Assembly: GCF_016757735.1 (NCBI RefSeq)
Contig: NZ_CP068439.1
Span: 1,860,001 to 1,924,000 of the forward strand
DNA from: Aequorivita iocasae
GTDB taxonomy: Bacteria > Bacteroidota > Bacteroidia > Flavobacteriales > Flavobacteriaceae
Reading direction: 5' to 3'
Length of the DNA: 64,000 nucleotides
This document shows, in pieces, positions 2,017 to 63,474 of the stretch. The position numbers and the translations under genes are program-made. The notes beneath the pieces are model-generated. The model did not search any database. It had not been told where the DNA came from and saw only the letters and a list, made by a program, of their open reading frames with translations. Every line of letters begins with the position of its first letter. Positions within the stretch are counted from its first letter, which is position 1.

Positions 2017-3714
2017 TTAAAATTTTGAAGAAATGCTGATATGGATTTTTGTATTCGAAAAACTGAAATTTCCATTTTGCGAGTTCCCGTTCGCTACATT
2101 GAAACGGAATAAGCCTGCCTTTGTGCTCAATCCCAGGCCTAATCCAAAACTATAGAGATTTTCTTTTAAAGCTGCGGTCTCATTTTCAAAATACGCCACA
2201 TCTATGATGGAGTGTATGAATACCCCCTCATTAAATAGATAGCGGTACTCTGTATTTATTACCGAATATAGCGAAGCGTCAATACTGTTTTCATTAAAGC
2301 CACGAATACTGTTTATTCCACCAAAGCGGAATAATTCGTTCACTAGATAGGTTTCGCTGAAAAGAACACTCGTGCTATTTTGAACAAAAATGGAATTTTT
2401 ATAATTTAAATTGAAAATGTTGCTAATTCTGGATTCTACGCTAAATTGATCTTCAGAACTCCCTTCTCTTTTGCGAGACCCGATGCCCATGTCTAAAAAT
2501 ATTGCCGTCTTCACCGGAAAAAGTTTTCGATTTTGTGGTTTTATATAGGTGCCTCCCGCAATAAAAAACTTTGATTTAAAATCTTCCACGGGCACGCCCG
2601 CTATTGCTTCATCCAATAAGTTGCTGGATTCGTAGCGTTTGTAACCAACGTAAACAGTAGATTTTGGGTCTATCTGGTAGGTAGTGCGTATTTGCTGCTC
2701 AGTGGTGATAAAGGTGCTGTCTCTTTTAAAAATCTTTAGTTCTCCGCTTAGTCCAAATGGTGTTCCTAAAATATAAGGCAGGGTGAGTCTTGTTCTGAAG
2801 TTTACCTGCTCTTCGCCATCGGCTTTATAATTTATTAAAAGTTGCTCGCCATAATTTAAGTTGTTGTTCAATTCTAAATTAAGGTAACCGTTGAAAGTCA
2901 ATTTTTGGGTTTCCTCATCGGTGGCGAAACCCAAAATACCGTCAAATAAGTTATTGTTCTGCTTTTCCAAATAAAAATATACTACCGTTGAGTCTTTTCG
3001 GAACAAAGCTTCGGGGGGTTTTATGGTGGAGACAAAGCCTAGACTGTTTAGATTTTCGTTTTGAGCTACTAATTTCTTTTGATTAAAAACACGCCCTTTT
3101 CGAACGCCCGCATAATATTTCAAAAATGATTTTGGAAACTTTTCGTAACCCTTCACAACTATCGAATCTACGGTTCTAATGGTTCCGTTGTCCACGAGTA
3201 AATTTGCGCTCAAGACGCCGTTTTCACCTTTTTCAAGTTGGGTGAGCTTTACGCGTGCAAAGGCATTTCCTTTTTGGTTGCGAATTGCGGTAAGCATTCC
3301 GAGTGCGCGGGGAATAGTTTCAAATGGAAGTATGAAATAAGTTTCCGTAATCTCAGAAGCAACCCGCTGAAGTTCTTTTTTGGTAAAATCTTCTTCTGAA
3401 TAGAAAACCTTTATTTCTCTGTACTTTTTCCCGAGAAAGAAATCTGCAACATAGCTGCTGTCGTTTTCTTTTTTAAGCTGAAGCAATTCACTTTCAATAA
3501 ACCCCATGCGCTGAAGCTTAAGATAAAGGGTGTCGGTTTCATTTTTTATTGAATTGAAATCTTCAAACGTTGTTTGCATTTGAAGCGAGTCTTTAATGCC
3601 TTCGGAAATGGGTTTTTCTGTTTTTAGGGAAAGGGTGAGTTCCTGTGCATTTATTCCGAAGAAAAAACAGGTATACATATTAAGGTATAGAAAAATATAC
3701 AGGAATCTTTTCAA
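2017..3714 (-). CDS. Omp85/BamA-like outer-membrane protein (POTRA plus beta-barrel)
   Basis: A 565-residue protein with an N-terminal signal peptide (about 1-23, ending GINAQ), a region with one or two POTRA-like folds (about 95-260) and a C-terminal barrel (about 275-565). The barrel contains FGGINSIRGFNENS, matching the conserved RGF loop motif of the Omp85 superfamily, and ends in SSKF with the expected terminal aromatic residue. It is shorter than BamA (~800 residues), so it is more likely an accessory family member (TamA-like or surface antigen D15-like) than the essential BamA. It sits alone between a SusC gene and the divergent ribosomal cluster. Cargo is unknown. Confidence 0.85.
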   Translation of the reverse strand: MKRFLYIFLYLNMYTCFFFGINAQELTLSLKTEKPISEGIKDSLQMQTTFEDFNSIKNETDTLYLKLQRMGFIESELLQLKKENDSSYVADFFLGKKYREIKVFYSEEDFTKKELQRVASEITETYFILPFETIPRALGMLTAIRNQKGNAFARVKLTQLEKGENGVLSANLLVDNGTIRTVDSIVVKGYEKFPKSFLKYYAGVRKGRVFNQKKLVAQNENLNSLGFVSTIKPPEALFRKDSTVVYFYLEKQNNNLFDGILGFATDEETQKLTFNGYLNLELNNNLNYGEQLLINYKADGEEQVNFRTRLTLPYILGTPFGLSGELKIFKRDSTFITTEQQIRTTYQIDPKSTVYVGYKRYESSNLLDEAIAGVPVEDFKSKFFIAGGTYIKPQNRKLFPVKTAIFLDMGIGSRKREGSSEDQFSVESRISNIFNLNYKNSIFVQNSTSVLFSETYLVNELFRFGGINSIRGFNENSIDASLYSVINTEYRYLFNEGVFIHSIIDVAYFENETAALKENLYSFGLGLGLSTKAGLFRFNVANGNSQNGNFSFSNTKIHISISSKF

Positions 3715-13406: not shown

Positions 13407-13676
13407 ATGGCTAAAGAATCAATGAAGGCCCGCGAGGTTAAGAGACAAAAAACGGTATTGAAATACGCTGCCAAACGCAAAGCTTTAAAAGAAGCTGGCG
13501 ATTGGGAAGGCTTACAGAAACTACCTAAAAATGCCTCACCCGTACGTTTGCACAATCGCTGTAAGCTTACCGGAAGACCAAGAGGGTATATGAGAACTTT
13601 TGGAATTTCACGCGTAATTTTCCGTGAAATGGCAAATTCAGGGTTAATTCCGGGAGTGCGCAAAGCATCCTGGTAA
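13407..13676 (+). CDS. rpsN: 30S ribosomal protein S14, zinc-free type
   Basis: An 89-residue S14 of the 30S head. [20 protein letters not shown] and [18 protein letters not shown] are canonical. The CxxC...CxxC ribbon of the short form is absent; only one Cys is left, so this is the longer zinc-independent form. It is followed by an 87-nt gap before rpsH. Confidence 0.97.
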
Positions 13677-13721
13677 GAATAGATTTTTTTCTGTTCAAAA
13701 GAAAAGTATAAACTGGTTGAA

Positions 13722-18879: not shown

Positions 18880-18934
18880 TGAAGGAATCAAGAACTAAAG
18901 GATTAACGTAAGACCTTAATTTAGTTTTCCTTCA
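18880..18934 (+). promoter_or_regulatory. Long two-part hairpin before rpsD
   Basis: TGAAGGAA (18880-18887) pairs perfectly with TTCCTTCA (18927-18934), and AACTAAA (18893-18899) with TTTAGTT (18920-18926). The two right arms are contiguous and the left side has a 5-nt bulge. The structure ends 16 nt before the rpsD ATG. S4 represses its own mRNA in Bacillus and the alpha operon in E. coli; this is a candidate S4 site by position and structure only. Confidence 0.5.
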
Positions 18935-19650: not shown

Positions 19651-20643
19651 ATGGCAGTATTTAGTTTTCAGAAGCCTGATAAAGTTATAATGGTAAATTC
19701 TACCGATTTCGAAGGGAAATTTGAATTTCGTCCTTTGGAACCGGGTTACGGACTTACCGTTGGTAACGCATTAAGACGCGTATTACTTTCCTCATTGGAA
19801 GGATTCGCCATTACTTCGGTTCGTATCGAAGGCGTGGATCACGAATTTTCAACCATTGCAGGAGTCGTTGAAGATGTTACCGAAATTATTTTGAACCTTA
19901 AACAAGTTCGTTTCAAAAGACAGATTGACGAAATAGATAACGAAACCGTTACTATTTCAGTATCTGGAAACGAGCAGTTGAAAGCGGGTGATTTCCAAAA
20001 ATTCATTTCAGGATTCCAAGTATTGAACCCAGAATTGGTTCTTTGCAATATGGACAAAAAAGTGAATCTTAATTTCGAAATCACTATCGAAAAAGGTCGC
20101 GGCTATGTTCCTGCTGAAGAGAACAAAAAAGCAAACGCTCCTTTGGGAACCATCTTTACGGATTCTATCTACACTCCAATAAAAAACGTGAAGTACAGCA
20201 TTGAAAACTTCCGTGTAGAGCAAAAGACTGATTACGAAAAATTGGTTTTTGAAATCGTTACAGACGGATCAATCCACCCAAAAGATGCTTTGACCGAAGC
20301 TGCAAAAACCCTGATCCATCACTTTATGCTGTTCAGCGATGAGCGCATTACCTTGGAGGCAGATGAAATTGCACAAACTGAAACTTATGATGAAGAATCT
20401 CTTCACATGCGCCAGTTGCTTAAAACAAAATTAGTAGATATGGATCTTTCGGTTCGTGCGCTAAACTGTTTGAAAGCTGCTGAAGTTGATACCTTGGGCG
20501 ACCTAGTATCTTATAACAAAAATGACTTGATGAAGTTCCGTAACTTCGGTAAAAAATCGCTTACTGAGCTTGAAGAGCTTGTAAACGTAAAAGGACTAAA
20601 TTTCGGGATGGATCTTGCAAAATATAAATTAGATAAAGACTAG
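19651..20643 (+). CDS. rpoA: RNA polymerase alpha subunit
   Basis: A 330-residue alpha subunit. The N-terminal dimerisation domain (about 1-230) has [20 protein letters not shown]; the C-terminal domain (about 250-320) has [20 protein letters not shown] and [13 protein letters not shown]. The arginine of [10 protein letters not shown] corresponds to the DNA- and activator-contact residue R265 of E. coli. The upstream gap (94 nt) has only a weak 6-bp stem (19586-19615). Confidence 0.99.
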
Positions 20644-20645
20644 TT

Positions 20646-20728
20646 GATTAACGATTTCAGATTTATGATTTCAGATTGCTGAAGTTTTAAATCTGAAATC
20701 AACAATCAGCAATCGACAATCGTTAATC
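20646..20728. repeat. Heptad-phased inverted repeat array between rpoA and rplQ
   Basis: Five 7-nt units of form GATTNNN run from 20646 to 20680. After 6 nt come six 7-nt units of form NNNAATC (20687-20728), so the right array is the reverse complement type of the left. The outer arms pair over at least 11 bp (GATTAACGATT with AATCGTTAATC, allowing for register) and an inner GATTTCAGATT pairs with AATCTGAAATC. It begins 2 nt after the rpoA stop. Confidence 0.8.
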
Positions 20729-20762
20729 ATTAACCCATCATAATTTGCTCTCCGAAGAACGG

Positions 20763-20777
20763 ATCTTGTAGCAAGAT
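20763..20777 (+). promoter_or_regulatory. Small hairpin before rplQ
   Basis: ATCTTG and CAAGAT form a perfect 6-bp stem around a TAG loop, 18 nt before the rplQ ATG. It may belong to a larger leader fold, since CATCAT (about 20736) can pair with ATGATG just after it. Role unknown. Confidence 0.35.
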
Positions 20778-20795
20778 GATGATAACAAAAACGTC

Positions 20796-21293: not shown

Positions 21294-21317
21294 ATGAATT
21301 CCAATTCGATAAATAAC

Positions 21318-21352
21318 AAAGGGATAAGCGTTTTCGTTTATCCCTTTTTTTT
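21318..21352 (+). terminator. Terminator of the ribosomal cluster
   Basis: A 13-bp stem (AAAGGGATAAGCG with CGTTTATCCCTTT, one G-U pair) with a TTTT loop and a following T run, 25 nt after rplQ. It is a strong intrinsic terminator and the only one after the rpsJ-rplC hairpin. Confidence 0.9.
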
Positions 21353-63388: not shown

Positions 63389-63474
63389 GAATTACGAGCG
63401 ACGAATTACGAGAATGACGAAAGTGGAAATTAGAAATACGAAGTAAGAATACCGAATCCCGAATCCCAAATCAA
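63389..63474. repeat. Direct heptad array before yaaA
   Basis: Eleven units beginning with GA (consensus GAANTAC), followed by a degenerate AAATCAA, run from 63389 to 63474. All are 7 nt except the fourth, which is 9 nt. Two GAATTAC and two GAATCCC units are exact copies. It shares the 7-nt period and the AATC/GATT core with the array between rpoA and rplQ. Confidence 0.78.

Follow-up and report, generated by a model that had tools for sequence, protein, structure and literature searches.

A heptad-phased inverted array between rpoA and rplQ of Aequorivita iocasae, probably one of a dispersed class of exchangeable hairpins

The array at 20646-20728, lying between the genes for RpoA and ribosomal protein L17, is made of two inverted arms whose 7-nt units keep a constant core, and we consider it probable that it belongs to a dispersed class of intergenic or RNA-peripheral hairpins with degenerate heptad arms and a shared core, tolerant of register shifts, exchangeable, and generated by 7-nt slippage together with inversion. 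The array holds a strict phase and has the potential to form a hairpin; within the genus such hairpins are present in some genomes and missing from others, they carry differing cores at orthologous sites, and at two sites one has been replaced by another.

Structure and phase of the array

The source genome consists of a single contig of 3.35 Mb, and the window, that is the whole stretch of DNA analysed, covers 64 kb of it. The sequence-only reading had described five GATTNNN units facing six NNNAATC units across 6 nt, and the units read off the sequence agree with this exactly (Table 1). The triple-unit pattern GATTNNNGATTNNNGATT, with overlapping matches counted, occurs 8 times in the whole window, 7 of them inside the array, against an expectation of 0.01 per window in dinucleotide shuffles, none of which (0/100) reached 8. 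The lag-7 identity of the 83-nt array is 0.671, whereas 100,000 mononucleotide shuffles gave a mean of 0.281 and a maximum of 0.513. The phase thus lies beyond the expectation of shuffled sequence, and the shuffle counts together with the lag-7 identity exclude chance AT-rich sequence. When lag 7 was scanned over all 64 kb in 83-nt segments taken at every third base, the top values fell at the array, with the runner-up near 63.4 kb. A second lag-7 array of the window, at 63433-63472 (ending in GAATCCCGAATCCCAAATC), is direct and not inverted.

Table 1. Features in and around the rpoA-rplQ gap (positions in the window).
Feature	Position	Strand	Basis
rpoA, 330 aa; stop codon TAG ends two bases 5' of the array	19651..20643	+	ORF
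Left arm, five GATTNNN heptads (GATTAAC, GATTTCA, GATTTAT, GATTTCA, GATTGCT)	20646..20680	+	Sequence
Near-perfect inner stem-loop, GATTTCAGATTTATGATTTCAG / CTGAAGTTTTAAATCTGAAATC	20653..20700	+	Complementarity and fold
Spacer GAAGTT (6 nt) separating the two phased arms, within the apical stem of the predicted RNA	20681..20686	+	Sequence and fold
Right arm, six NNNAATC heptads (TTAAATC, TGAAATC, AACAATC, AGCAATC, GACAATC, GTTAATC)	20687..20728	+	Sequence
Conserved hairpin, candidate rplQ leader; P1 CATCAT/ATGATG, P2 TTGCT/AGCAA	20733..20782	+	Covariance model R1, 61.1 bits
rplQ (L17), 165 aa	20796..21293	+	ORF
Ordinary terminator-like hairpin and T-run 3' of rplQ, contrast case	21317..21351	+	By eye

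The array sits between rpoA and rplQ, where the earlier reading had placed it; more closely, it lies past the rpoA stop and 5' of the conserved rplQ leader hairpin. The RpoA protein encoded upstream matches that of Aequorivita sp. NORP10 in every residue. That the arms can pair was likewise borne out, their complementarity amounting to 81% over 32 nt or 74% over 38 nt, and the RNA of 20640-20740 being predicted to fold at -32.3 kcal/mol (z -6.5; 0/200 shuffles as low). The statement that this is neither a normal hairpin nor a terminator held in part: there is no U-tract, but the array is a hairpin, and by its z value a strong one. Inspection by eye for features of an intrinsic terminator at the array found AT-rich arms and no T-run after the right arm. 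A search of the array against Rfam 15 (E up to 5) returned no match at gathering score and only sub-threshold miRNA and snRNA models on the minus strand.

The rpoA-rplQ gap in Aequorivita and other genera

The genus sample comprised 28 genomes, the present one included, of which 27 had an rplQ match; genome G019, without such a match, does not enter the gap counts. Eight of the 27 genomes have an empty allele, in which only 5 nt (TTAAT) separate the rpoA stop from the leader, and the other 19 have a filled allele of 55-100 nt. The earlier description of the array as an insertion is supported by these empty alleles, the direction of the change (gain, not loss) being presumptive. All 19 inserts fold as hairpins (z -3.1 to -10.1); 12 are of the GATT type, six consist of AGAYNTN heptads, and the remaining one (L121) forms a hairpin that has no heptads. 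This comparison of the gap across relatives, which the sequence-only reading had proposed, gave heptad phase in 18 of the 19 inserts, lag 7 being the best of lags 4-12 there. The insert of locus L098 is 21 nt shorter than that of L107, a unit-sized step; the right arm of L108 falls a net 12 nt short of that of L103, which is no whole-unit multiple and counts against pure 7-nt steps.

Arms formed more stable duplexes with their own partners than after permutation: energies as low arose in 22 of 20,000 permutations for 12 GATT loci and in 304 of 20,000 for six AGAY loci (L121, belonging to neither class, was excluded). Mean arm-arm binding was -24 (GATT) and -28 (AGAY) kcal/mol for arms of different species and -27 and -32 kcal/mol for own arms, respectively. 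The own right arm was never the best partner in the GATT loci, where it ranked 2-7, and was best in two of the six AGAY loci. Since the own arm is rarely the best partner, coevolution appears weak, and shared cores or template copying may account for the pattern instead of selection; the advantage of own arms is modest and fits template copying, selection, or both.

At the same gap of other genera most loci carry no insert. Nine inserts tested there are hardly heptad-phased, with lag-7 identities of 0.26-0.49, and their folding is mixed (z -0.8 to -5.8); they are a subset, because the search pattern misses AATTTGC leaders, and visual inspection shows longer stretches at 12 non-Aequorivita loci. 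Loci L039, L057, L066, L070-L072 and L074 of other genera carry unrelated, non-heptad sequence directly past the rpoA stop, and some of these sequences are strong predicted hairpins (z -1.7 to -5.8, mononucleotide shuffles). Unrelated inserts of this sort indicate that the site accepts different inserts.

A candidate rplQ leader downstream of the array

The hairpin between the array and rplQ (Table 1) is conserved in much of the family; by pattern it was found in 87 of 107 rpoA-rplQ gaps (80 named loci and 27 genomes of the genus). Over 78 distinct sequences, 97.4% of the cells of P1 and P2 are paired and six pairs are changed on both sides, compared with a shuffled mean of 2.1 and none of 500 shuffles as high; sliding the partners destroys this signal. 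The structure used for the pair counts is the RNAalifold result, with P3 left out because the variable 3' linker was misplaced by MAFFT. A 32-sequence subset, which agrees with the covariation result of the 78 sequences, was used to build covariance model R1. This model has a single match in the present genome, at the hairpin itself, and, under stricter filters over 60 genomes of the order, five matches, every one 5' of rplQ; they come from five of seven genomes of the same family (own included) and from none of the 53 others.

None of the Rfam 15 leaders, the S4-Flavobacteria leader RF03141 included, matched 20733-20782 at E up to 5. The available part of a survey (PMC7247131) gives an S4 leader in Flavobacteria, with rpsD, rpoA and rplQ as the regulated genes, and an L17 leader for Actino- and Proteobacteria only; a literature search for a nearer known rplQ leader than that survey, over sources available in part, found nothing. 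We regard the element as a candidate L17/rplQ leader of Flavobacteriaceae, covarying and absent from Rfam. Elsewhere in the window, 5' of rpsD, positions 18893-18926 give a weak match to RF03141 (22.9 bits versus a gathering score of 35.2), and the rpsK-rpsD gap of two relatives holds heptad palindromes (L166, 2796-2837; L169, 3230-3278).

The expectation that a repeat insertion here would change transcript folding was weakly borne out: in one computed fold the mean probability of the leader pairs is 0.68 when the array is present, against 0.87 when it is absent. The expected pairs of the array number about 25.5 with itself and 7.5 with its neighbours. This somewhat less formed leader suggests some interference by the array, which counts against the reading that we prefer.

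A strong hairpin placed exactly between both cistrons, directly 5' of a covarying leader, and kept in all 19 long gaps despite sequence turnover could act as a regulatory attenuator or partial terminator that sets the ratio of RpoA to L17. We nevertheless judge this improbable, given the AT-rich stem and the missing U-tract, the eight genomes of the genus that have no hairpin, and the recurrence of the same class in unrelated gaps and in the side arm of a TPP riboswitch.

Heptad arms in putative TPP riboswitches

Five further arrays that were fetched lie inside a putative TPP riboswitch, between the 5' strand of P1/P2 and the CTGAGA core. Rfam searches of these five loci at gathering score gave no match; at the one locus searched permissively (L176), RF00059 was recovered with 31.6 bits (E 0.00013, cut-off 54.3) and an 88-nt insert in P3, so that here the heptad hairpin seems to have taken the putative riboswitch below the Rfam cut-off. 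The TPP core pattern, allowing up to 3 mismatches, occurs once each in 27 of the 28 genus genomes, G017 being the one without it. The P3 arm is at least 50 nt long and predicted to fold back in 25 of the 27, and lag 7 is the best of lags 4-12 in 24 of these 25. By core counts and by eye, the 27 arms were assigned to nine GAGT, seven GATT, six TACGA, two CAGTT, one other and two short. Nine of nine P3 arms from nine other genera are heptad-phased, the family search behind them having matched 11 of 120 genomes (two of this genus) with a pattern limited to 60-90 nt between anchors.

Strict spacing and a constant core are also what a binding array for a protein reading GATT every 7 nt would display, yet cores at the same sites switch to AGAY, GAGT or TACGA and none is kept; because of this switching, we hold such an array to be highly implausible.

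Replacement of hairpins between sister genomes

Two sister genomes, G002 and G026, differ in the class of their rpoA-rplQ palindrome, and the breakpoints coincide with the edges of the palindrome. Outside the gap, full 150-nt blocks are identical at 143-150 of 150 positions (57/65 in the partial last block), and the parts aligned over one contig are about 95% identical, which leaves the operon more strongly conserved than the remainder. At the TPP riboswitch the segment holding the P3 arm agrees at 52 of 92 positions and differs throughout, against 181/189 and 194/199 in the neighbouring segments, and the arm segment of G026 agrees with that of the present genome at 95 of 97 positions, though the outer flanks are 86-90% alike. 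This pattern would be the signature of an exchange of the arm only, for which recombination anchored in the invariant aptamer strands would be the simplest route. We infer such exchange by recombination from the two sites in this one genome pair and from a rough tree. Parsimony on that 26-genome tree gave 12 and 16 class changes, counts that are rough and stand without a shuffle control. The concatenated tree, from which G017 and G019 were excluded, has 16 of 23 inner branches starred, and its flanks are possibly non-homologous or recombined; a tree from rpoA and rplQ only is poorly resolved, with 9 of 29 inner branches starred.

The sister genomes also differ in unit number: G026 has three units of an AGATGTT array, and G002 has two. 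At about 13586-13716 of locus L198 (G026) there is a (GTTAAGG) array of about 15 units of a near-perfect heptamer, with about three units at the matching place of G002.

Heptad arrays elsewhere in the genome, genus and family

The array is not peculiar to this operon: arrays of 7-nt units, built on many different cores, are scattered through the intergenic DNA sampled from this genome and from two relatives. A genome-wide search for the two-armed GATT pattern, also proposed by the sequence-only reading, located it at 3 places, with none for the reversed-pattern control. Across the genus the pattern occurs in 22 of 28 genomes and its reverse in 0 of 28; across the family it occurs in 63 of 299 genomes versus 11 of 299 for the control, many single matches possibly being due to chance.

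When no core was assumed, 464 kb of the present genome yielded 19 intergenic lag-7 arrays and three in ORFs; for comparison, lags 4-6 and 9-13 had 0-3 intergenic arrays, lag 8 had 8, and the harmonic lag 14 had 15. The samples of two relatives contained 13 and 14 lag-7 arrays, 10 and 13 of them intergenic, and at most four arrays at lags 4-6 and 8-13. Autocorrelation revealed no lag-7 excess in the coding DNA of the present genome. Lag 7 was best (at least 0.5) in 12 of 89, 7 of 43 and 6 of 49 intergenic palindromes of the three samples, with at most 5, 1 and 2 for the next lag, respectively; most intergenic palindromes in these samples are not heptad-phased. Seven nucleotides is the standout tandem period of the sampled intergenic DNA, and the mild rise at lag 8 counts against the preferred reading. 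At 2868-3193 of locus L158, tandem copies of a longer unit (~CTGTCACACTGAGCGCAGTCGAAGTGCCRAATCAACAAAT) are flanked by AATCCCA heptads.

The REP and BIME sequences of enterobacteria are likewise intercistronic palindromes able to act on mRNA; they have a conserved sequence and a partner transposase and are not known to be heptad-phased. A mobile palindromic element resembling these or a MITE, inserting past stop codons and stabilising or attenuating operon mRNA, would account for the dispersal of the palindromes, for wholesale replacement at one site and for the scattered distribution on the tree. Twenty two-armed GATT loci outside the TPP riboswitch lie between co-directional genes in 16 cases, convergent genes in three and divergent genes in one, which would also suit such an element; these loci were chosen non-randomly from the pattern listing, with gene calls from a simple ORF script, and since 163 of 256 gaps of the present genome's sample are co-directional anyway, any such preference is slight. 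Against a mobile element speak the lack of a fixed element sequence, with cores varying by species and site, the 7-nt phasing of the units, and the recurrence of the same orthologous sites in many species, and we therefore think it unlikely.

Neutral mutational debris, in which heptad slippage and template-switch palindromes accumulate under no constraint, would agree with the spread of 7-nt arrays of many cores over intergenic DNA, many of them single-armed, with core pairing that lets arms of different species fit each other, and with the tolerance of the gap for empty alleles. It is harder to reconcile with the strong hairpins of all 19 long gaps, the non-heptad one included, and with the 25 long TPP arms that are predicted to fold back; unconstrained debris has some chance of being the answer, though a rather small one.

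Relation to known heptad repeats

The array belongs to a known kind, the degenerate heptad hairpin, in a new setting, and the cases of cassette replacement are clear but few. In the available parts of the papers on the tRNA-Leu(UAA) group I intron of Nostoc, and also of Calothrix, degenerate heptanucleotide repeats are described as pairing in the peripheral hairpin P6b (PMC4476775, PMC3488679), with motifs of Class I (TDNGATT) and Class II (NNTGAGT), a length that varies by repeat units among other indels, and whole stem-loops that replace one another at one site while the structure is kept (PMC4476775). As far as those parts go, P6b and the present class share the anatomy of a heptad hairpin, GATT and GAGT cores and wholesale replacement at an orthologous site; the setting differs, being Bacteroidota intercistronic gaps and the TPP P3 arm instead of a cyanobacterial intron, and the present class adds the cores AGAYNTN, TACGA and CAGTT and many loci per genome. 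The strict Class I motif fits 52 of 101 GATT units at rpoA-rplQ and 16 of 62 at the TPP site, and the strict Class II motif 31 of 54 GAGT units. By analogy the array would work as P6b does, yet it is not an element of a trnL intron.

A further paper (PMC4692102) deals with heptameric simple sequence repeats of intergenic DNA, GGGAATC in Xanthomonas and GGGGATT in Nostoc; in its available part it proposes slippage for them and credits an earlier survey. The array class qualifies as such a repeat, a 7-nt tandem unit being over-represented in intergenic DNA; judged from that part, it has in common with them the unit length, the intergenic position, often between co-directional genes, and the recurrence at corresponding sites of related species, where length and sequence vary. 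Those repeats are G-rich and were studied as possible quadruplexes, whereas the present ones are AT-rich inverted pairs that form hairpins. Also intergenic heptamer arrays are the TAACTGA direct repeats reported, in the part of the source available, from Beggiatoaceae, Cyanobacteria and five Bacteroidetes (PMC4679880), the few Bacteroidetes adding to the likeness; unlike the present class, they are described there as a single fixed heptamer in direct orientation, mostly placed immediately 5' of start codons. The mainly open literature yielded no account of a heptad hairpin from Bacteroidota or from a TPP riboswitch, which is weak evidence of absence.

Origin and possible role of the array

According to the preferred reading of a dispersed class of exchangeable heptad hairpins, tandem 7-nt slippage would lengthen the arms, and template switching or inversion would make the second arm. 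With the core recurring at 7-nt intervals in both arms, pairing would be possible in any 7-nt register, so that gains, losses and changes of units would still leave a hairpin. Lineages may then exchange alleles through short homologous recombination with its anchors in invariant flanks, for which the rpoA 3' end and the rplQ leader, and P1/P2 and P4/P5 of the TPP riboswitch, are proposed. Selection would mainly ask for an insert that folds on itself and spares the neighbouring functional RNA. On this model the array studied here is presumably a structured intercistronic spacer that separates rpoA from the rplQ leader; it may shield the 3' end of rpoA or weaken the coupling of rpoA and rplQ. 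That eight of the 27 genomes do without any hairpin counts against the model.

The recurrence of this anatomy and replacement in a second phylum, where many loci per genome and also TPP P3 arms carry such hairpins, makes their origin testable: sister genomes allow 7-nt slippage, template switching and recombination over short tracts to be traced. A practical yield is that the rpoA-rplQ gap also holds a covarying rplQ leader candidate missing from Rfam. More tentatively, Flavobacteriaceae may possess a general process that builds 7-nt-phased hairpins at a fixed set of sites next to RNAs and exchanges them among lineages as cassettes with different cores, the same process as in the cyanobacterial trnL P6b arms; we see this as possible but doubtful. 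If it were true, heptad hairpins would form one class of evolvable RNA side arms spanning phyla, their 7-nt step preserving the ability of the arms to pair in every register.
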